From Brevibacillus ruminantium (GTDB taxonomy: Bacteria; Bacillota; Bacilli; Brevibacillales; Brevibacillaceae), in the NCBI RefSeq assembly GCF_023746555.1, contig NZ_CP098755.1, forward strand, positions 710,001-774,000: a DNA stretch of 64,000 nucleotides, written 5' to 3'. The number at the start of each line of letters is the position of its first letter. The first letter of the stretch is position 1. Made by a program: the position numbers and the translations under genes. The notes below the pieces were generated by a model. It saw only the letters and a list, made by a program, of their open reading frames with translations, ran no database searches and was not told where the DNA came from. This document shows, piece after piece, positions 3,720 to 12,844 of this stretch.

Positions 3720-3802
3720 CATTTTGTAAGGCAGCATGTATACGTTTTGATTTGCGCCTAGTATTTGAGGGGATGTAAACCTTTGAAATCGGTGCTCTGG
3801 CG

Positions 3803-4001
3803 AGAAGAAGCATGGTTTCCCTGCTCAGCTCCGTACTCCGCCCGCGAGGAAGCATGTACTGTCCGCTCCAGGGGGATTCGCGGGGGAGACGTAAAAGCAG
3901 TAACGCTCCGAGGTCATCCCAAGGCTACGCTCCTTTTTCCCGCGAATCCCCCTTCCGCTGGGCAGGGCTCCACAGTCGCAACGCAGGGAAACATGCTTCT
4001 T
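3803..4001 (+). repeat. 200-bp dispersed palindromic repeat, copy A
   Basis: A non-coding element of about 200 bp with inverted ends: GAAGAAGCATGGTTTCCCTG at the left and CAGGGAAACATGCTTCTTC at the right. The same element occurs in inverse orientation at 19294-19494; similarity runs across the whole length, including the centre (ATCCCAAGG). No convincing reading frame crosses it. The inverted ends and lack of a gene suggest a miniature mobile element or a structured-RNA repeat. I cannot assign it to a named family. Confidence 0.75.
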
Positions 4002-4387: not shown

Positions 4388-5299
4388 TTAGGAATATTTA
4401 TTCACTATTTTAAGTAAATAATCTCGAAATTCTTCAATATAGGTTTTCGGCTCTACTATTTCCAGATTTGTCCCGAAACTCGCTAAAAATTGAAAGCCAA
4501 TACTGTTTTGCGGAACATAGATGGTAGCTAAAAAATATTCTGAACTGTATTTTTCAATACTCTTTCGACCGTACCTTTCAATGAATTGATCTTTTATGCC
4601 AGGCGAAATCAACGCCTTGACTGCGACTAGTTCCGGTTGAAAACTTGCTTCCTGCTCTTGTTCCAACAAATCATTTCTAGGGCTAAACGTTTGTTCATTC
4701 ATATTAAGATGATCGATCCGAGATAATTTGAACGTTCTATATCTCATGCGATGTAAGCAGAATCCTTTCAGGTACCAACTCGTCTCGCTAAAATGAAGCT
4801 GATAGGGCTCTACAGTTCTTTTCGTCGCAGTGCCATTTTTATCTATATAATCAAATGAAACTACTCTTCGCTTTAAGATGGCTTCCTGACATGTCTTCAA
4901 GGTTTGACGAATCTCAGACCGCCCCTCCCAATCATAAAAAGATAATTGAATGGAACCTTTCGGAGCCAATGGGCTAACCATGGCTTCTATTTTTTTGATC
5001 GTTATTTCAACTTCTTCACTAATTAGAATTTGTTCCAATCCGCCGAGCGCAGTCAATATATTCTCTAAGTCGGAGCTGTTTAAAAGACGTTTATCCACCT
5101 TGTATTCATCCATAATGCCGTAGCCGCCATGAATTCCAATGACCGAATAGATCGGGATGTTTGATAAACTCAAGGTTTCCATATCGCGAAGAATCGTTCT
5201 TTTGGAAACGCTAAATAATTGCGCGAATTCTTTGGTAGAAACAACATCTTTCTTCAGCAATATCATAATGATAGAGATTAGCCTCTCAACCTTTTCCAT
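4388..5299 (-). CDS. WYL-domain transcriptional regulator (YafY family)
   Basis: A 303-residue protein with an N-terminal HTH_11 winged helix (residues about 1-60, including VVSTKEFAQLFSVSKRTILR) and a C-terminal WYL ligand-sensing domain (about 130-300, with RRVVSFDYIDKNG and a SWYLKGFC core). Such proteins often repress or activate a divergent neighbour. I moved the start to ATG 5299, behind AGAGGGG, rather than a further upstream ATG without a ribosome site. The VOC-family gene at 5403 is divergent, so the 100-base gap probably holds a shared control region. Base composition is AT-rich compared with flanking core genes. Confidence 0.85.
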   Translation of the reverse strand: MEKVERLISIIMILLKKDVVSTKEFAQLFSVSKRTILRDMETLSLSNIPIYSVIGIHGGYGIMDEYKVDKRLLNSSDLENILTALGGLEQILISEEVEITIKKIEAMVSPLAPKGSIQLSFYDWEGRSEIRQTLKTCQEAILKRRVVSFDYIDKNGTATKRTVEPYQLHFSETSWYLKGFCLHRMRYRTFKLSRIDHLNMNEQTFSPRNDLLEQEQEASFQPELVAVKALISPGIKDQFIERYGRKSIEKYSSEYFLATIYVPQNSIGFQFLASFGTNLEIVEPKTYIEEFRDYLLKIVNKYS

Positions 5300-5402
5300 C
5301 GGTTCCCCTCTTTTTTTTTCTACTTCATTATGAAACGGTGACATACAGCTGTCACCTCTTATAAATTATACTCCATTTATAACAAGAAGGAGGTTATGCT
5401 TT

Positions 5403-5867
5403 ATGTCAGCTATTGCCTATTTAAACTTTGATGGAATTGCAGAACAAGCGATTGAATTTTATTCGGAGGCTTTAAGCGCACTTGAGGTAAAAATAGTGAA
5501 ATTTGGGGATATCCCACAAGATCCAAACTACCCAATGCCGGAAAATGAGTTAAATATGGTCATGGAGTCTTCCATAGAATTCGCAGGCGGGAAAATCATG
5601 ATGTCGGACATTTTGCCTTCAATGAAGGCGGTAACAGGTGAGCTGGTGAAAGGGAATAATATTCTGATTAGCCTAGTCATCGATGATAAGCAAAAACTGG
5701 AACAATACTTTAATAGTTTGTCCCTTGGTGGCTATGTCACCATGTCGTTATCCAATTATCCTTGGTCTTCGTGCTTTGGAACGCTGGTTGATAAATTTGG
5801 GGTCAACTGGAAATTCAATAGCGACGCAGATCAGTTTCTTGATAACGTAATATCCAACAAACAGTAA
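5403..5867 (+). CDS. VOC-superfamily protein (PhnB/glyoxalase-like)
   Basis: A 154-residue protein resembling the PhnB / 3-demethylubiquinone methyltransferase-like branch of the vicinal oxygen chelate superfamily. It opens with YLNFDGIAEQAIEFYSEAL and has the mid-protein motif GGKIMMSD and the C-terminal motif WGxxxGxxVDKFGVNW in the variant form SSCFGTLVDKFGVNWKFN. The substrate cannot be predicted. Its strong ribosome site is AAGGAGG. It is divergent from the WYL regulator, which is a plausible controller. It is AT-rich and lies in an accessory block. Confidence 0.75.
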   Translation: MSAIAYLNFDGIAEQAIEFYSEALSALEVKIVKFGDIPQDPNYPMPENELNMVMESSIEFAGGKIMMSDILPSMKAVTGELVKGNNILISLVIDDKQKLEQYFNSLSLGGYVTMSLSNYPWSSCFGTLVDKFGVNWKFNSDADQFLDNVISNKQ

Positions 5868-6442: not shown

Positions 6443-7012
6443 ATGGAAATCGATAATTTAATTCCTGTAAAGTCCAGAGGAGAGTTGAGGTTTTGGCTAC
6501 AGGAAAATAGTAAGATTGAAAAATCTTGTTGGGTCTTAGTTAGTATGACGCCCAAATCGGATATGCTCTTATATTTGGATGCGGTCGAGGAAGCTTTGTG
6601 CTTTGGATGGATCGATGGAGTCAAGAAGAAAATATCTGAAACAGATCTGGCACAGAGGCTGTCCCCTCGAGGCAAAAAAAGCTCATGGACCGAATTGAAT
6701 AAAGAACGTGTCCGCCGCCTCGAAAAGTTGGGGTTGATGACAGACGAAGGAAGAAAGATTCTTCCTGATATGGATTACGACTCTTTTCGAATCGATCCCG
6801 TTATAGAGCAAAGGCTGAAAGAGGAAAAGCAAATATATGAGAATTTCAAGGCATTTCCGGATCTGTATAAAAGAGTTCGGATCGACACGATACAAAGCCT
6901 AAAAAATCAACCGGAATTATTTAAGAGCAGATTGGACAAATTCATAACCAACACGAGAGAAAACAAAATGTACGGTCAATGGAATGATTATGGACGTCTA
7001 CTGGATTATTAA
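6443..7012 (+). CDS. YdeI/OmpD-associated family protein
   Basis: A 189-residue protein of the YdeI/OmpD-associated family, with the signatures SCWVLVSMTP, ALCFGWIDG and the RLSPRGKKSSWTELN segment around residues 75-90. The molecular function of the family is poorly defined; members have been linked to peptide or bacteriocin tolerance. It lies 40 bases after the deleted MFS gene and has a GAGAGGAAA ribosome site. Composition is AT-rich like its neighbours. Family assignment is fairly sure, function is not. Confidence 0.75.
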   Translation: MEIDNLIPVKSRGELRFWLQENSKIEKSCWVLVSMTPKSDMLLYLDAVEEALCFGWIDGVKKKISETDLAQRLSPRGKKSSWTELNKERVRRLEKLGLMTDEGRKILPDMDYDSFRIDPVIEQRLKEEKQIYENFKAFPDLYKRVRIDTIQSLKNQPELFKSRLDKFITNTRENKMYGQWNDYGRLLDY

Positions 7013-7207
7013 GATGCCTTGTCAGTTCTATTATCTAGGCAGGTCACCAGTGGCCACACGTTCTATGTGAGTGTCTACTATTGTTGATGCTGAGGGAATG
7101 ATCAAGATATGACGATGCTTTATACATAATTGCGTAGGCTGACCTCGGCCATATTGGATTCTGTACGGCCACTTTTACACTTTTCGCCGTTAGACCCGTT
7201 AAGCTGA

Positions 7208-7297
7208 ACCGTACCACAAGTGAGGGTACACAAGATTAGGCAGGAGATTGTACTTGATGAGTACTACATAAGCAGGCTTGGCAAACTAAATAGATAA
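7208..7297 (+). pseudogene. Relic of an unknown gene's 3' end, copy 2
   Basis: A second copy of the peptide tail found at 4095-4190, reading IRQEIVLDEYYISRL then GKLNR and TAA. The two copies are in the same orientation and bracket the WYL-VOC-MFS-YdeI block (4388-7012). The remaining sequence between 7013 and 7407 shows no other gene. Confidence 0.45.
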
Positions 7298-7407
7298 TCG
7301 TGTAAATAGGCTTCCTGAACAATGAAAAGACGTGGGGAATCGTAGAATAATATCCATGATCTCCTTGTAAACTTCACATTGGTTCAGCAAGCCCTACTTA
7401 TTTGATG

Positions 7408-7581
7408 TTACATATTCCATGTTTTCACTTCTGTATGTCTTTTCTGATACTCAACAATGTAGATGTCCAGTTCTTGGCTTAAGGCTACTACGGAAGGATC
7501 GGAGAAGCCCTTTTCTTTTACCATTTGGCATAATTGTTGTCGCAACTGTTCTATAGTCAGTTTAAGTTTTTCCTCTTCCAA
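7408..7581 (-). CDS. Spo0E-family aspartyl-phosphate phosphatase
   Basis: A 57-residue protein. It has the Spo0E hallmark LSQELD (residues 34-39) in a predicted helical hairpin: MEEEKLKLTIEQL forms helix 1 and a second helix contains SQELDIYIVEYQKRH. Such proteins dephosphorylate Spo0A-P in the sporulation phosphorelay. Translation most likely starts at TTG 7581, seven bases behind AGGAAGGG; no ATG fits. It follows a 48-codon gene on the same strand (8009-8155) that an IS605-type element now separates from it. Confidence 0.75.
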   Translation of the reverse strand: MEEEKLKLTIEQLRQQLCQMVKEKGFSDPSVVALSQELDIYIVEYQKRHTEVKTWNM

Positions 7582-7658
7582 TACAATACCCTTCCTAGTA
7601 AAATATTGGCTCCTTATACGGATTGATCATTTCTGTCTTTGTTTATTTTTTAACTTAT

Positions 7659-8012
7659 AGGTCGAGAAGTCTCCACTTCTAAAACCTTACAGCGTTTGGT
7701 TGTAAGTGGGGGATGAATCGACTTCGGACAAGGACAGGCTTTTGCCTGTTCAGTTGTCCGACACTTTGGTAAAATCTACTTATGATGTTCTTTGATAACT
7801 GGATATATGGGGTTGCATGGAGAAACAAAATGCGAAAACCAAGCTTATCCTTCCATGCGTAAAATATCCAAGGTAACAAAAGAACTCCGAAACGTCGGAC
7901 ATCTAGGGTAGGGACTACCCGAAGTAACGCTCGAGGAGACGAAAGGTTACTTTCGTCGTGGATTTGAGAAGCTCCCACTTCAAGGCGTTAGCCTAAGTGG
8001 AGAGTAGTTCAC
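7659..8012 (+). mobile_element. Collapsed IS200/IS605-type element (tnpB lost, both ends retained)
   Basis: The two ends carry matching subterminal hairpins: CTCCACTT...AAGTGGGGG at 7671-7712 and CTCCCACTT...AAGTGGAGAG at 7972-8003. The right end finishes in GTAGTTCAC, as in many IS605-group right ends. Just before the right end, one frame still reads ELRNVGHLG-stop-GLPEVTLEET, which resembles the C-terminal tail of TnpB proteins. The element is only about 354 bp, so transposase and nuclease genes are gone. The left boundary is placed after TTAT at 7655-7658 and may be off by a few bases. Confidence 0.65.
7880..8012 (+). ncRNA. Candidate omega-RNA (TnpB guide RNA) scaffold, possibly inactive
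   Basis: In IS605-group elements the 3' end of tnpB and the right end are transcribed as the omega-RNA, whose guide is the flanking DNA. Here the equivalent segment is intact: a GGTAGGGACTACCC hairpin region (from about 7911), a GTAACGCTCG...CGAAAGGTTACTTTCG structure (7924-7955), and the right-end hairpin ending at 8012. The guide would start at 8013 (GAAATTGATT). No tnpB is present here; function would need one elsewhere in the genome. Expression is not shown. Confidence 0.35.
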
Positions 8013-8155
8013 GAAATTGATTTGATTGTCCCTTTTAGATGGCGTTCCTGTGATCTTGGCCGATTGATGAACGCCTTTCTTCCAGGGTTGCCTTTCTGGG
8101 GGATATTAAAAGCATTAGAGAAATAGAAAATGTCATCTGGATACTGATCTGCCAT
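8009..8155 (-). CDS. Small hypothetical protein upstream of the Spo0E-like gene
   Basis: A 48-residue frame, beginning MADQYPDDIFYFSNAFN and rich in charged residues, starts at ATG 8155 behind AAAGGGGTGA. Its stop codon lies exactly at the right end of the IS605-type relic. Removing the relic rebuilds a TAA at the same place with the same final residues, so the insertion left the protein unchanged. Before insertion it would have been directly upstream of the Spo0E-like gene on the same strand. I do not recognise the family. Confidence 0.45.
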   Translation of the reverse strand: MADQYPDDIFYFSNAFNIPQKGNPGRKAFINRPRSQERHLKGTIKSIS

Positions 8156-8271
8156 TGATTCACCCCTTTGTTATTTTTTCTACTCTATGTAATTATTGTA
8201 AAGGCTGTCGCACACCCCCATAGCAAAAATGACGCCTTGAGAAGTTTTACATAATTCGACTTGAATCTACA

Positions 8272-8303
8272 TAAAAAACAAAAAGAACGCTCATTGAGCG
8301 TCC
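8272..8303 (-). terminator. Terminator after the signal-peptide gene
   Basis: On the minus strand a stem ACGCTC/GAGCGT with a 3-base loop, extended by a G-C and a G-T pair, is followed by TTTTTGTTTTTT. It lies 25 bases after the stop of the peptide gene at 8328-8471. Confidence 0.8.
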
Positions 8304-8327
8304 TTGAGGAAGTTTTATAGTTCTGCA

Positions 8328-8471
8328 TTAATAGCCTGGGTCATACACGTATGGGATAACAGTTGTTTTCGGAGAGACTTTTTTGTTGGAATCGGCAAGG
8401 TTGCTAGATGCTAAGTTTACAGATAAAACCATCGTAAATACCGTTAAAATCATGAAAATTTTTCTTTTCAT
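8328..8471 (-). CDS. Secreted pro-peptide, probable quorum-sensing signal for the RRNPP regulator
   Basis: A 47-residue protein with a Phr/NprX-like build: positively charged start MKRK, a hydrophobic core (residues 5-20), a small-residue cleavage zone (NLASSNLA), a short charged linker (DSNKKVSPK) and a C-terminal TTVIPYVYDPGY. Such precursors are exported, trimmed to 5-10 residues and re-imported to bind a TPR receptor. The receptor gene is at 9835-11124 on the same strand; an ISL3 element now separates them. With that element removed, this start lies 23 bases after the receptor stop. A terminator follows directly. The mature sequence is a guess: the C-terminal 5-10 residues are most likely. 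Confidence 0.7.
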   Translation of the reverse strand: MKRKIFMILTVFTMVLSVNLASSNLADSNKKVSPKTTVIPYVYDPGY

Positions 8472-8508
8472 TAATCACACCCACTTTCTTCCTATTAGGT
8501 AATAAGTT

Positions 8509-9849
8509 AGCTCTTCACCGTAAAACGTGCTTGATCTCCCTCTATCGCAGTTTTTCGTAGTTATGTAGCCGGTTTACACTCCAGTCTAATGCGAATCTTG
8601 AATCTCTCTAGATTGCGGTAGCCGTAGGCTCTTCGTTTGATCACCTTCACTTTGTTGTGTGTCCCTTCAATCTTGGCATTCGTTACCCGAAAGGAGAAAT
8701 AATTCTGAATGGGCTCTCGCCACTGGACAATCGTTTTGGCAATGGAACGAACCGCAGGAGTCGGAGAATAGAGATGGTCGTCAATCCATTTCTGAAGTGC
8801 TTCCTCGCCTGCCTCTTGGGTTTGAACGGCATACACGGTTCTTATGTCTTGAAGCGCAAAGTAGAGTCGTTTGAGGTGTGGATCTTCTGCTAACCAATTC
8901 TTCAGTTCCTGAAGCTCTTCGGGCTTCAGCTTGTCAGGGATCGTATGGAGCAGGCGTTGCTCATGTCTGCCCCGACGATGTGTTCCACGAGCATGAGTGC
9001 GTTTTCGGGTAGCTTCCAACGCTTTCGAGAAAAGCTGGATCACGTGAAATTTATCTGCTACCACAAGGGTATGCTTCCAGACTTGGCGTACTGTTTCAGC
9101 CATTCCTGGAGCCAAATCCGTGACAACTACATGGGGAGCCTTACGAAAGGGCCATTGCTGCAGGGCGTTTCGTACCTGTTCACGTGAACGTCCTTCTGTG
9201 ACTTGCCAGATATGACCGGTTTGAGCATCCATGAGGTTCACGCCGTACTTATGTCCTTTTTGCAACGCAAACTCATCCAGACAGACCACTTCAGGAGCTT
9301 CATGTTCTTTTGGTTGAGCAAGGCGTTGGGGGGCCAGTTGGTAGTACCAGCGTTCGAGTGTCGAGTAGGCCACACTCAATTGCTTGGCAACCGAGAGCAA
9401 ATCCCGGCCGCGGCACATATCCACCGCCATCTCTTGAAAAGCAGAGGTGACCAATCCTCGAGGCGGGATACCGTTCCATTCCACTGTCCATGTAAGCCCA
9501 CAACTCGCACAGCGCTGGCGATACACGGGAACGGATACCCAGACGGTCCCCCAAGAAGGAACGAAACGATGACGAAGAATACGCCGTCCAGGACGGGCAT
9601 GGTTGGTACTGGCTCGGAGACAGATCGGACAAAGATAACAAGCAGAATTCGGTTCCAGAACAGCGATCCAATCCGTTTCCGTTGTTTTTTCCCAATGAGT
9701 GAGATGGAATGATGGAAGTCTGACAAAGTCTGTGCTAAAATCAAGGCACAACGCAGATTTCCTCCTTTTCAGTGGTTGTCTCGACAACTCCCACGATAGA
9801 GGAACATCTGCGTTTTTTCAATGTCTAGCACGGGTTATGGTGATGAATC
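8509..9849 (-). mobile_element. ISL3-family insertion sequence with 8-bp target duplication
   Basis: A 1341-bp element. Its left end AGCTCTTCACCGTAAAACGT and the reverse complement of its right end GATTCATCACCATAACCCGT are imperfect inverted repeats. It is flanked by the exact direct repeat AATAAGTT at 8501-8508 and 9850-9857, matching the 8-bp duplication typical of ISL3. It carries a single transposase gene. The intact duplications show simple insertion without later rearrangement. It landed on the last codons of the RRNPP regulator gene, replacing its final residues and separating it from the peptide gene. Confidence 0.9.
8561..9751 (-). CDS. ISL3-family transposase
   Basis: A 396-residue DDE-type transposase. 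The N-terminus has zinc-binding cysteine pairs (CYLCPIC and CASC). The catalytic core shows CLDEFALQKGHKYG (first Asp), VVTDLAPGM (second Asp) and NAKIEGTHNKVKVIKRRAYG (Glu), the classic ISL3 pattern. Length fits the family. I place the start at TTG 9751, eight bases behind AAAAGGAGG; upstream in-frame codons would put that ribosome site inside the gene. No frameshift is visible, so the element may be active. Confidence 0.92.
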   Translation of the reverse strand: MCLDFSTDFVRLPSFHLTHWEKTTETDWIAVLEPNSACYLCPICLRASTNHARPGRRILRHRFVPSWGTVWVSVPVYRQRCASCGLTWTVEWNGIPPRGLVTSAFQEMAVDMCRGRDLLSVAKQLSVAYSTLERWYYQLAPQRLAQPKEHEAPEVVCLDEFALQKGHKYGVNLMDAQTGHIWQVTEGRSREQVRNALQQWPFRKAPHVVVTDLAPGMAETVRQVWKHTLVVADKFHVIQLFSKALEATRKRTHARGTHRRGRHEQRLLHTIPDKLKPEELQELKNWLAEDPHLKRLYFALQDIRTVYAVQTQEAGEEALQKWIDDHLYSPTPAVRSIAKTIVQWREPIQNYFSFRVTNAKIEGTHNKVKVIKRRAYGYRNLERFKIRIRLECKPAT

Positions 9850-11124
9850 AATAAGTTCATTATATACTTGTTTTAATTTTTGAGTAGATAGCGCATCTAT
9901 ACCTTTTCCATATGAAACGTAAGAGGCAATAAGATCACTCATGCATTTGGTAATCTCTTCATGATCATTTATCCGTCCGTATGCTAGCATACTATTCAAA
10001 TAGCTCGTAACACCTTCATCAAACTTGCCTGTATTGAAATAGAAATTACCTTTATATTTGAAGTATTCCCCCAAAGAGGAATGTTTATAGGGGGTTTTTG
10101 CATCAAATACCAAGTATTGTTCCTCTTTCGTGAGAAGTTCGGAGATTAACTCTGTATCTCCTACTTCGAAATAAACCCTTAATAATTCATTTATGACGTG
10201 TATACGGGCATGTTCGCTGATTTCTTCAAGGCAACTTTTTAACATGGGGATTGCTATGTTGTATTCCTTTTTCCTTGCTTTAACAATAGCTCTTGTTAGT
10301 TTAGCCGATTCTTTAACAAAACTATAATCAAGTAATTCATAGAAAACCAAATGACTTTCTACAGCTTCATAATTTTCAGTTAGTAGATAAGAGTTGATCA
10401 TTGCCAAATATGCCCTTGCTTTGAGTTCTGTTTGTGTCGTCTCCAATGCTAGACCTGCCTCGCAAAGTTCAATACACTGCTTGTATCTCTTTATCGCAAA
10501 AGCTTGTAGTCCCATTCTGAAATAGTAAATAATCCTTTCTTCTTGAGATAAGAAGTCGACGTAGTGCAAGATTTCCTCGCCAGCTTTGAAAGACTCCTCC
10601 ATTTGCTTTAAGTCAAGTCGCTCAATTAGATAAATTTGTAACAGACTTTTTGCAACGTATGGAGGAACCCCTCGCTCTCGTGCGTATCTTGCGATGATCT
10701 TGTATAGCATCAACTTAAAAGCTGTATCTGCAAGGTTTTCCGTCAGAAGATATAGCTGTTTTATCGCGTTATATGTATCTTCTTGTGGAGATTCGAGAAG
10801 TTTCAAAGCTACTTTTGATACTAAAGGCTCGTTTGAAAATTCTACGGCCTCCATAAGCAGTTCCTTTAACGCTTCCACCCGTTTTTCTACATCAATATAG
10901 TGCTCAACAATTTCTTGATATGGGATTTCCAGAACATGCGCTATCGCTTTGATTGTTCGTAATTCTGGTCGTTTCGTATCCCCTAATTCGATTTTTGAAA
11001 TAACCCCCTTGTGTACCCCCGACATGTTTGCAAGTTGTGTGATACTTAGATTAGCCTGTTCTCTGTATCTTTTTATGACATCACCGATGGTAGTAAATTG
11101 AAGAGTGCTTACACTTTCCTCCAT
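9835..11124 (-). CDS. RRNPP-type quorum-sensing regulator (XRE HTH plus TPR repeats)
   Basis: A 429-residue protein with an N-terminal XRE/Cro helix-turn-helix (residues about 10-65, including LSITQLANMSGVHKGVISKI) followed by roughly 350 residues of TPR-like helical repeats (for example YFRMGLQAFAIKRYKQCIEL and YFKYKGNFYFNTGKFDEGV). This is the layout of peptide-binding regulators such as PlcR and NprR. I chose ATG 11124 behind GGAAGGTG. The last codons (…DSSP-stop) come from the inserted ISL3 element; the original end was …NELIT-stop. The cognate peptide gene is at 8328-8471. Targets are unknown. Confidence 0.88.
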   Translation of the reverse strand: MEESVSTLQFTTIGDVIKRYREQANLSITQLANMSGVHKGVISKIELGDTKRPELRTIKAIAHVLEIPYQEIVEHYIDVEKRVEALKELLMEAVEFSNEPLVSKVALKLLESPQEDTYNAIKQLYLLTENLADTAFKLMLYKIIARYARERGVPPYVAKSLLQIYLIERLDLKQMEESFKAGEEILHYVDFLSQEERIIYYFRMGLQAFAIKRYKQCIELCEAGLALETTQTELKARAYLAMINSYLLTENYEAVESHLVFYELLDYSFVKESAKLTRAIVKARKKEYNIAIPMLKSCLEEISEHARIHVINELLRVYFEVGDTELISELLTKEEQYLVFDAKTPYKHSSLGEYFKYKGNFYFNTGKFDEGVTSYLNSMLAYGRINDHEEITKCMSDLIASYVSYGKGIDALSTQKLKQVYNELIDSSP

Positions 11125-11183
11125 CTCTTTCACCTTCCAATCAAATCGGTCTTTCCTTTATTTCCATTTACGTCTCTTTCCAA

Positions 11184-11212
11184 ATTTTAACACTGTGCAT
11201 TTTTTTTGTAAA
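11184..11212 (-). promoter_or_regulatory. Promoter of the RRNPP regulator
   Basis: Minus-strand TTTACA (11207-11212) and TAAAAT (11184-11189) are separated by exactly 17 bases, giving a good sigma-A promoter about 60 bases upstream of the start codon. No clear palindromic operator overlaps it. Confidence 0.6.
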
Positions 11213-11408
11213 TTGCGGATTTGAGTAGTGTTTTGAAAATGTAGCATTTCATTGAAGGTGGTTTAGTATAGAGTTTGATATTGGACTAAACTTCCTGACA
11301 GGGAATTCTGTGTAGGAAAGATATATTACTGGGTTTACTAAGCTGGGGGACGGGTCGTTCACTGTACATAGTTCAACGTACACACTTTACAAACTTGCCC
11401 CCACTTAG

Positions 11409-11449
11409 AAGGCTTATTCCACTTGTTACAGATGGAGTGAGCCTTTTTT
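11409..11449 (+). terminator. Terminator-like hairpin in an intergenic region
   Basis: AAGGCTTATTCC pairs with GGAGTGAGCCTT using G-T pairs and is followed by six T. No gene ends just upstream on this strand, so it may terminate a short transcript starting near 11280-11340; a nearby inverted repeat TGTAC/GTACA (about 11361-11380) could be an operator. Function is unclear. Confidence 0.45.
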
Positions 11450-11482
11450 GCATGAGAAAATCATTTTGGAGGATGAACGTCA

Positions 11483-11587
11483 ATGGCAAAAAGTGCACAG
11501 GCAGTAGAGGGTTTACTTGCTCAGGCGCAAGCAGAGTATGTGAATCGGCTACACTGCAGACAGCGCGGTGAGTCTTATCACAAATAA
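11483..11587 (+). CDS. Very small hypothetical ORF
   Basis: A 34-residue frame (MAKSAQAVEGLLAQAQAEYV, then a basic tail) with a good ribosome site, GGAGG, about 10 bases before ATG 11483. It may be a real small protein or the start of a deleted gene. I do not recognise it. The rest of 11213-11743 shows no other coding sequence. Confidence 0.3.
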   Translation: MAKSAQAVEGLLAQAQAEYVNRLHCRQRGESYHK

Positions 11588-11743
11588 ATGGAAAATATTT
11601 AGGGTCAGCGGTGTCAAAAGTATAAGAATCAGAATTTTTAAAAAGTAATTGTATGACTGTGGGGGAAATGATATATACTGGATTTATACTGCGAAAAATT
11701 GGAAGTAAGATACGCAACAAATATCCAGACGAGGAGGAAGAAC

Positions 11744-12844
11744 ATGAAAAAGGTAATTCGTATCGCAACTGCTCTCAGCCTTGCCGTTCCACTTATGAGC
11801 GCATCGATGGTATCAGCGGCGCCTGCACCAACGGCCCATGACTACAACAAGGAAATCCAGGTGAATCAATTCCGTCCACATGGCGGGGACCAAGCGGAAG
11901 TGCAAGAATTTTTTGCGGAGTTTGTTAAGAATATTGCGAATCCAAAAGAGGTGGAAAAGTTTCTGGCGGCTGATTCTCAAACGAGAGCAGCAGTGCAGGA
12001 ATACCTAGCGGGCCTGTCACAATACAAGGAAGTGAAAGTCGTAGAAGCGAAGGTAGAAAAGCTGTATACGGTTGCTGATTACGGTGCTTTCACCAACTAT
12101 CGTGCCATTGCCAAATTCAAGTACCTTGGCTACACGAAGGACAATAAGATTATCGAAAAGACGGATTACATAGGATTGGCGAAGCTGGGCAAGGAAACAA
12201 CGGATTGGAAGCTGTGGGGACTGGTTTGGCAGGATACCGGAATCGATGTCTCGGATGTGAAGCTGTTCCAGCTCGAAAAGCCGGCCAAGGGTGAAGAAAT
12301 CTGCGTCATCACGACCGATGCAGGAGTGATCAAGCTGAGGCTGTTCCCCGACAAGGCTCCGAAGGCAGTCCAAAATTTCAAGGAGCTTTCGAAAAAGGGC
12401 TTCTACAATGAGCGTTTGTTCCACCGTGTGATCAATGATTTCATGATCCAAATCGGCGGCAAAGAAGAAACGCCGGAGGAAAACGAGACGATCTTTGGTG
12501 GCGCGTTTGAAGATGAGTTCAACCGGGACCTGTTCCACTTCAGAGGGGCGATCAGCATGGGGAACGAAGGACCGAACTCCAATACCAACCATTTCTTCAT
12601 CGTACAAAGTCCGAATGTAGATCAGCAGTACCTGGATCTGTCTGCACTCCCGTTGAATGCGGAAGCGAAGTATCAGGAGATTGGCGGCCGCGCATATCTG
12701 GATAACCGTCACACCGTATTCGGACAAGTATTTGAAGGAATGGAAGCAGTGGACAAGATCGCTGCTCAGAATACGGATGAGAACGGACTTCCGCTTAAGG
12801 ATGCGATGCGAATCTTGAAGATTGAATTTGTGAAATACGAATAA
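11744..12844 (+). CDS. Secreted cyclophilin-type peptidyl-prolyl cis-trans isomerase
   Basis: A 366-residue exported protein. Residues 1-26 are a signal peptide (MKKVIRIATALSLAVPLMSA...VSA). Residues about 30-170 are a domain without a clear family, possibly NTF2-like. Residues about 180-366 are a cyclophilin domain: ITTDAGVIKLRLFPDKAPK, the catalytic FHRVINDFMIQIGG and the GPNSNTNHFFI motif, in which the usual SQFFI is changed to NHFFI. It would catalyse proline isomerisation during folding of exported proteins. The start ATG 11744 has AGGAGGAAGAAC directly upstream. A terminator follows at 12854. Confidence 0.85.
   Translation: MKKVIRIATALSLAVPLMSASMVSAAPAPTAHDYNKEIQVNQFRPHGGDQAEVQEFFAEFVKNIANPKEVEKFLAADSQTRAAVQEYLAGLSQYKEVKVVEAKVEKLYTVADYGAFTNYRAIAKFKYLGYTKDNKIIEKTDYIGLAKLGKETTDWKLWGLVWQDTGIDVSDVKLFQLEKPAKGEEICVITTDAGVIKLRLFPDKAPKAVQNFKELSKKGFYNERLFHRVINDFMIQIGGKEETPEENETIFGGAFEDEFNRDLFHFRGAISMGNEGPNSNTNHFFIVQSPNVDQQYLDLSALPLNAEAKYQEIGGRAYLDNRHTVFGQVFEGMEAVDKIAAQNTDENGLPLKDAMRILKIEFVKYE

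Follow-up and report, generated by a model that had tools for sequence, protein, structure and literature searches.

An ISL3 insertion separates a quorum-sensing receptor from its predicted signal-peptide gene in Brevibacillus ruminantium, and relatives suggest exchange of receptor C-terminus and peptide as one cassette

A predicted quorum-sensing receptor of the RRNPP type and its signal-peptide gene lie on the minus strand of a 64,000-nucleotide (nt) stretch of Brevibacillus ruminantium DNA (assembly GCF_023746555.1, contig NZ_CP098755.1, positions 710,001-774,000 forward), hereafter the window, within which all coordinates are given. An ISL3-family insertion sequence (IS) lies between the two genes, and comparison with relatives suggests that such receptors change their signal by swapping the C-terminal half together with the peptide gene. 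We consider it quite probable that the locus is a receptor-peptide-spo0E module of RRNPP subfamily 08 that was recently split by the ISL3 element, having acquired its cassette earlier by recombination. Along the minus strand, the order is receptor, ISL3 element, peptide open reading frame (ORF), hairpin, conserved stretch, 48-residue ORF, ~365-bp element and Spo0E-like gene. The core features are:

9835..11124, minus strand: predicted XRE-tetratricopeptide repeat (TPR) quorum-sensing receptor, 429 aa, open, with an all-helical model and a tail that now reads ...NELIDSSP
10909..11076, minus strand: predicted helix-turn-helix (HTH) DNA-binding domain, receptor residues 17-72, from a domain match
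8328..10401, minus strand: putative exchanged specificity cassette, from sequence comparison (peptide gene together with the receptor codons from ~241 onward; ~0.72 kb when the inserted IS is not counted)
9850..9857, no strand: target-site duplication AATAAGTT, receptor side, exact 8-bp repeat
8509..9849, minus strand: ISL3-family insertion element, 1,341 bp, by transposase profile, terminal repeats and 8-bp duplication
8561..9787, minus strand: ISL3 transposase ORF, 408 aa, TTG start, matching PF01610 and NF033550
8501..8508, no strand: target-site duplication AATAAGTT, peptide side, exact 8-bp repeat
8328..8471, minus strand: predicted secreted propeptide ORF, 47 aa, C-terminus VIPYVYDPGY, from the ORF list and the peptides of relatives

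A sequence-only reading of this DNA had placed the receptor and the 47-residue peptide on one strand, with an ISL3 element and its exact 8-bp duplication between them. This arrangement is confirmed, as are the coordinates of all these features and the C-terminus of the peptide. The element is an ISL3 member by its transposase, its target duplication and its terminal inverted repeats: the transposase is open, runs on the same strand as receptor and peptide and matches PF01610 (E 2.7e-54) and NF033550 (248.2 bits, cut-off 180), and the inverted repeats are imperfect while the flanking duplication is exact. The genome holds five ISL3 copies without a single difference across 1,341 bp, each flanked by its own perfect 8-bp repeat, and because these copies are identical the split looks recent. 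When the flanks were joined by script with a single repeat kept, the receptor ended in NELIT-stop and the peptide ATG followed 23 bases further on, reproducing the earlier removal of the element in silico. Both ORFs are still open after the insertion. The receptor had been proposed to survive with an altered tail, and the replacement of T by DSSP indeed falls past its last predicted helix (residues 411-425). The predicted architecture of the protein is that of RRNPP receptors, with an N-terminal HTH (HTH_3, E 5.3e-13) followed by a C-terminal TPR superhelix; the TPR_12 match (E 9.2e-6) is below its gathering score, as are all TPR models, and the predicted structure consists of all-helical repeats at a mean predicted local distance difference test (pLDDT) score of 90.4.

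The pairing of receptor and peptide draws its strength from relatives. Homologues of the receptor occur in 17 of 26 same-genus genomes (E 1e-20) and in 23 of 39 same-family genomes (E 1e-90). Draws of 121 and 398 Bacilli genomes gave matches in 7 and 27 genomes, all in Brevibacillaceae; at most 14 and at most 4 candidates per genome were scored in these draws, and with this ceiling weaker homologues may have gone unseen. Paenibacillus plasmids carry relatives at 32-34% identity. Eighty-four loci (40 + 4 + 40), picked from longer match lists, yielded 89 rows of receptor ORFs or fragments, among them split fragments (L047, L072) and one plasmid twice (L103 = L126). A peptide was scored where a secreted-peptide-like ORF started at most 60 nt from the receptor stop, a rule fixed once 40 of the loci had been inspected. 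By this rule a peptide ORF adjoins 80 of the 89 homologous receptor ORFs or fragments; of the 332 other ORFs in these loci that reach 200 aa, which served as controls, 21 pass. The nine rows that fail are the N-terminal fragments L047 and L072, a Spo0E fusion (L051), L066, where none was found, L124 and L128, where by eye a peptide is present just beyond the limit, and the second match of L129 and both of L141, which are frames with stops or tandem genes. In the relatives, a small predicted secreted propeptide thus stands next to the receptor on the same strand, and in the window the IS separates the pair. Loci free of the IS and lacking a peptide ORF had been named in advance as the finding that would speak against the pairing; across the 84 loci the pairing held.

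The peptides themselves are alike at their C-termini. Among 79 distinct peptides, that of the window included, 49 end in [DN]PG[YHFW], against 0.0085 expected when residues after position 20 are shuffled, and 75 end in [DNE]P plus one or two residues (3.2 expected by shuffling). In the closest relative, B. parabrevis NRRL NRS 605 (L037, the same locus as L082), the receptor is 70% identical and the peptide, ending VVDPGY, starts at +15 nt. A chance ORF with no relation to the receptor would also pass the rule at times, as 6% of the controls do, but relatives share both its position and its C-terminal motif, and the hairpin and promoter region behind it are conserved as well; we regard this explanation as scarcely credible. 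The earlier interpretation of the locus, as a receptor-peptide pair split by an IS with the receptor surviving, is supported.

The pair is better placed in subfamily 08 of Paenibacillaceae, a group described computationally, than with NprR, Rap or AloR. A plasmid of the B. laterosporus strain that holds pBRLA33 is described as carrying one AloR-AloP and one cluster-8 system (Bernard 2023, PMC10075063). RS22615 of pBRLA33, whose annotated downstream peptide ends YDPGY, shares 43.8% identity with the window receptor over 420 aa. A DPG motif is widespread in peptides of subfamily 08 and of AimR (Structural phylogenetics 2025, PMC12700828), and its presence suggests that RS22615, and not RS22620, is the cluster-8 member of pBRLA33. 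RS22620 is overlapped by a frame ending HGVGG, which resembles the SHGRGG of AloP13 and makes RS22620 the probable AloR; assignment to AloR is defined by at least 30% identity over 80% coverage to an AloR (PMC10075063). RS22620 (L107, 11580-13061) is AloR-like, annotated as hypothetical and missing from the PLSDB gene table. Since RS22615 is similar and has a DPG peptide while RS22620 is dissimilar, the window system, which combines homology to a known member with the DPG motif, is filed with subfamily 08. Membership in AloR was favoured at first for the spo0E neighbour and was dropped, as RS22620, the sole AloR-type comparison and itself a presumed AloR, shows no significant similarity to the window receptor (E 0.52). 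The description of the peptide as a precursor of the Phr/NprX type was not borne out: no family match by sequence supports an NprR/NprX or Phr identity, and the DPG motif points to subfamily 08 instead. A profile search of PDB chains (E 0.001) returned HTH proteins, designed TPR proteins and ComR (its HTH part), with NprR and Rap not among them.

Several known systems resemble this one in part. AloR-AloP of Paenibacillus polymyxa likewise consists of a receptor with a propeptide downstream and often a spo0E-like gene behind (Voichek 2020, PMC7425212), but AloP13 ends SHGRGG where the window peptide ends DPGY, and the receptors differ as noted. Arbitrium receptors (AimR-AimP) share the HTH, the many TPRs and the DPG peptides (PMC12700828), and AimR chains are among the best Foldseek matches of the receptor model. 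The present module, in contrast, is chromosomal and lies beside spo0E. Rap lacks an HTH or other DNA-binding domain, whereas the window receptor carries an HTH. Rap-Phr of Bacillus is similar in its sporulation control and in the co-divergence of receptor and downstream peptide gene (Even-Tov 2016, PMC5199041); mosaics are apparent here, whereas a large survey of Rap homologues found no evidence of divergence through recombination (PMC5199041). From the described members of subfamily 08, the present copy differs in being split by ISL3 and in a C-terminus and peptide that look exchanged as one cassette. The accessible parts of PMC10075063 and PMC12700828 make no mention of cassette exchange or recombination in the subfamily, and no description of such exchange, or of an IS between receptor and peptide, was found in the accessible open-licence literature, which is not proof of absence.

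The indication of exchange comes from the comparison with B. parabrevis. The two receptors are 86% identical in residues 1-80, 87% in 81-190 (87% over residues 1-200), 70% in 191-310 and 41% in 311-429. In 75-nt bins of DNA, identity is 81-89% over nt 49-724, 40-67% from there to nt 1474 through the peptide gene, and 87% in the next bin, so that the drop lies near codon 240 and the recovery just after the peptide gene. L115/L119 and L118/L119 likewise fall sharply near nt 725-750 and recover behind the peptide; L113/L119, L042/L053 and L127/L132 show a drop without recovery, which in L042/L053 comes earlier. Forty receptor pairs have 70-95% identity in the N-terminal half. Those with the same peptide tail mostly differ little between halves (equal, for instance, in L103/L128, L131/L133 and L055/L057), and drops of 44-45 points are found in window/L037 (89 to 45%), L113 or L115/L119 (86 to 41%) and L042-L044/L053 (81 to 36%). 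Exceptions run both ways: L064/L065 have the same tail and a 19-point difference, and L142/L143 have different tails and a difference of only 5 points.

Phylogenies of the two halves disagree accordingly. The N-terminal tree groups the window receptor with L037 (100/99) and the C-terminal tree does not. Approximately unbiased (AU) tests, on groups named after both trees had been seen, reject window+L037 for the C-terminal half (p 3.4e-5) and window+L110+L111 for the N-terminal half (p 2.9e-5); for the C-terminal half they also reject L119 with L113, L115 and L118 (p 8.3e-8) and L042+L053 (p 0.0019; L053 is a long branch). In a three-sequence count, the window receptor sides with L037 over L110 by 81:12 before codon 240 and by 21:40 after it (p 1.7e-11, best cut 240), whereas a control count of L110 against L111 and the window receptor shows no shift (p 0.70). 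The C-terminus of L037 sides with L039 (46:13), which makes the window lineage the likelier recipient.

By sequence, the peptide residue preceding DPG follows the C-terminal tree. Across 31 rows (L051 and L126 left out) it changes four times on that tree, the minimum for five states, and ten times on the N-terminal tree. With ten further near-identical rows dropped, the 21 non-redundant rows give again four changes on the C-terminal tree (4-6 on bootstrap trees; reached by 0 of 2,000 label shuffles) and ten on the N-terminal tree (9-12; 549 of 2,000). Together, these comparisons indicate that receptor C-terminus and peptide gene were exchanged as one cassette, with further cases in relatives, and a joint exchange of this kind lends independent support to the pairing.

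A more far-reaching reading, which we hold to be evenly poised, is that exchange of a ~0.7-kb cassette (the TPRs from codon ~240 and the peptide gene) between conserved flanks, the HTH half in front and the spo0E promoter behind, changes the pheromone, with the residue before DPG as a code letter. The window lineage would have passed from a V-type to a Y-type signal, and the ISL3 element would then have cost it expression of its own signal while the receptor was kept, leaving a receptor-only, eavesdropping-type state with spo0E as output. Several observations weigh against a cassette exchange: no donor above 56% identity was found, the exact place of the window receptor in the tree is weakly supported, Y before DPG also occurs outside the main Y group (L048, L103, L125, L128), and the partial correlation is weak, at 0.14 over all 3,240 pairs. 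The chief rival holds that C-terminal half and peptide diverged fast together in place, by accelerated receptor-ligand coevolution without exchange. Unique changes are indeed more numerous in the window receptor than in L037 (53:21, 47:18 and 45:18 for three outgroups; 46:30, p 0.085, for L038) and fall mainly within residues 251-429; the C-terminal end branch of the window receptor is long (0.58-0.67), and a close donor is lacking. Divergence in place is nevertheless at odds with the reversal at codon 240, behind which the window receptor shares more with L110 than with its sister, with the abruptness of the DNA change (89% to 64% in neighbouring bins; L115/L119 and L118/L119 also drop at this place) and with the same-tail pairs whose halves do not differ, and we think it unlikely.

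The remainder of the locus, which includes a Spo0E-like gene and a second mobile element that the sequence-only reading had missed, comprises:

11184..11212, minus strand: promoter-like site TTTACA-17-TAAAAT with TG ahead of the -10, 5' of the receptor; 10 of 12 consensus matches, in a region at chance level
8283..8305, minus strand: terminator-like hairpin with T-run 3' of the peptide gene, kept in B. parabrevis
8200..8282, minus strand: stretch 5' of the Spo0E-like gene, conserved also in B. parabrevis and containing GTCGAA at 8255-8260; probably the spo0E promoter region
8009..8155, minus strand: 48-residue ORF with a ribosome-binding site that looks good by eye
7648..8012, minus strand: ~365-bp mobile element without a sizeable ORF, between promoter region and Spo0E-like gene; 14 other full copies at 97-99% in the same genome
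7408..7581, minus strand: predicted Spo0E-like phosphatase gene, 57 aa, probable output

The last of these is by its profile match a Spo0E-like phosphatase gene (PF09388, E 2.5e-16, 59.8 bits, cut-off 23) and, by analogy with AloR, the likely output of the receptor. Raw counts over the 89 rows put a Spo0E-like gene behind the receptor on the same strand in 20 cases, upstream and divergent in 10, and in a fusion with it in 1. The divergent gene forms a second arrangement, present in 10 of the 11 loci L039-L044, L052, L053 and L055-L057 (the exception is L041). In L051 (complement 4429-5829), a long branch, a Spo0E-like domain (PF09388, E 5.8e-10) is fused in frame behind the HTH and TPR parts, and no peptide ORF was found behind the fused gene; L038, its nearest neighbour in the tree, is accompanied by a peptide ORF and, downstream, by a Spo0E-like gene. 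The gene order receptor, peptide, Spo0E-like gene also occurs in phage Sundance, in phage SecTim467 (L105) and in a B. halotolerans plasmid (L106); in the latter two the peptide ORF is not annotated (~3780-3920, ending YTDDPGY, and ~3788-3930, ending YHDDPGH) and overlaps the receptor gene.

Gaps between peptide and Spo0E-like gene (e.g. L104, L115, L118, L119, L137) contain a conserved GTCG(T/A)A ~50-60 nt before a GGTAAAATAAT-like -10, which is followed by a GC-rich hairpin in the Spo0E gene leader. The motif GTCGWA, chosen by eye after the stretches were inspected, is enriched: it is present in 16 of 21 intergenic stretches on the downstream side (shuffle mean 4.5), in 9 of 10 that are divergent (1.9) and in 21 of 84 receptor upstream regions (9.6). 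It may be a receptor operator, but it also resembles the Spo0A box TGTCGAA. The ~365-bp element has hairpin-like ends that, judged by eye, resemble those of IS200/IS605 relatives. By separating the Spo0E-like gene from the conserved stretch ahead of it, the element may have changed the output as well. The 48-residue ORF had, besides itself, one weak match only (E 0.008) in the 39 family genomes, and an Rfam scan of 7000-12000 gave no matches at gathering score.

The insertion displaced all DNA upstream of the peptide by 1,349 bp. The sequence-only reading held that the peptide lost its operon promoter unless IS transcription reads through, and we infer the same. The transposase gene points toward the peptide and ends 90 bp ahead of its ORF; no terminator-like site was found between the two and no promoter-like site on that strand in 8472-8560, in a scan that as a whole stood at chance (6 promoter-like sites against 7.7 in shuffles, 4 terminator-like against 3.6). 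With the promoters 1,349 bp further off and no promoter-like site at the junction, the signal is probably reduced, with read-through possible. Other receptors of the same genome (L046, L065, L070) are open, each with an adjacent peptide, and a further one (L072, 2440-3682) lies in two frames with an open peptide ORF behind it ending ..NVEPEW. The peptides at these other loci end TDDPRG, DIDPGY, KIDPEW and VEPEW, so none repeats VYDPGY in this genome.

By the precedent of the family, the cell would secrete the propeptide and take back a trimmed form of about VYDPGY, its C-terminal residues, to which the TPR half of the receptor would bind. The receptor would in turn control the spo0E-like gene and, through it, Spo0A phosphorylation and the timing of sporulation, by analogy with AloR13/AloP13 of P. 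polymyxa, in which the free receptor switches spo0E on and the peptide reverses this (PMC7425212). Comparison with relatives suggests that, before the insertion, the lineage gained a new C-terminal TPR and peptide cassette by recombination, so that its signal became ...VYDPGY where the closest relative has ...VVDPGY. Today, the strain would keep the receptor but have hardly any signal of its own, or none, barring read-through transcription from the transposase gene.

Two other outcomes deserve consideration. The peptide may still be made, by read-through from the transposase or from a promoter formed at the IS end, in which case the signal would be rewired and not silenced; the orientation of the transposase gene, the lack of a terminator-like site behind it and the undamaged peptide ORF are in favour, although so recent an insertion makes an open ORF poor evidence of expression. 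Against this outcome stand the usual weakness of transposase promoters and the lack of any promoter-like site in the scan of the junction, and we regard it as a minority possibility. Alternatively the whole locus may be decaying, with the IS, the second element and a frameshifted paralogue marking loss of the system in this strain and no adaptive meaning. Two mobile elements inside one module and the broken L072 speak for decay, but receptor, peptide and Spo0E ORFs are all open, as are L046, L065 and L070 with their peptides, and decay falls somewhat short of an even chance in our view.

These observations bear on a standing question, namely how peptide-signalling pairs change specificity and yet keep their function. 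A receptor half and a peptide gene that apparently move as one unit would supply natural chimeras and a candidate specificity residue, and the receptor-Spo0E fusion found in one relative offers a natural clue to what the output may be. The copy split by the IS would itself be a natural experiment, in which an apparently intact receptor has been cut off from the normal link to its signal.

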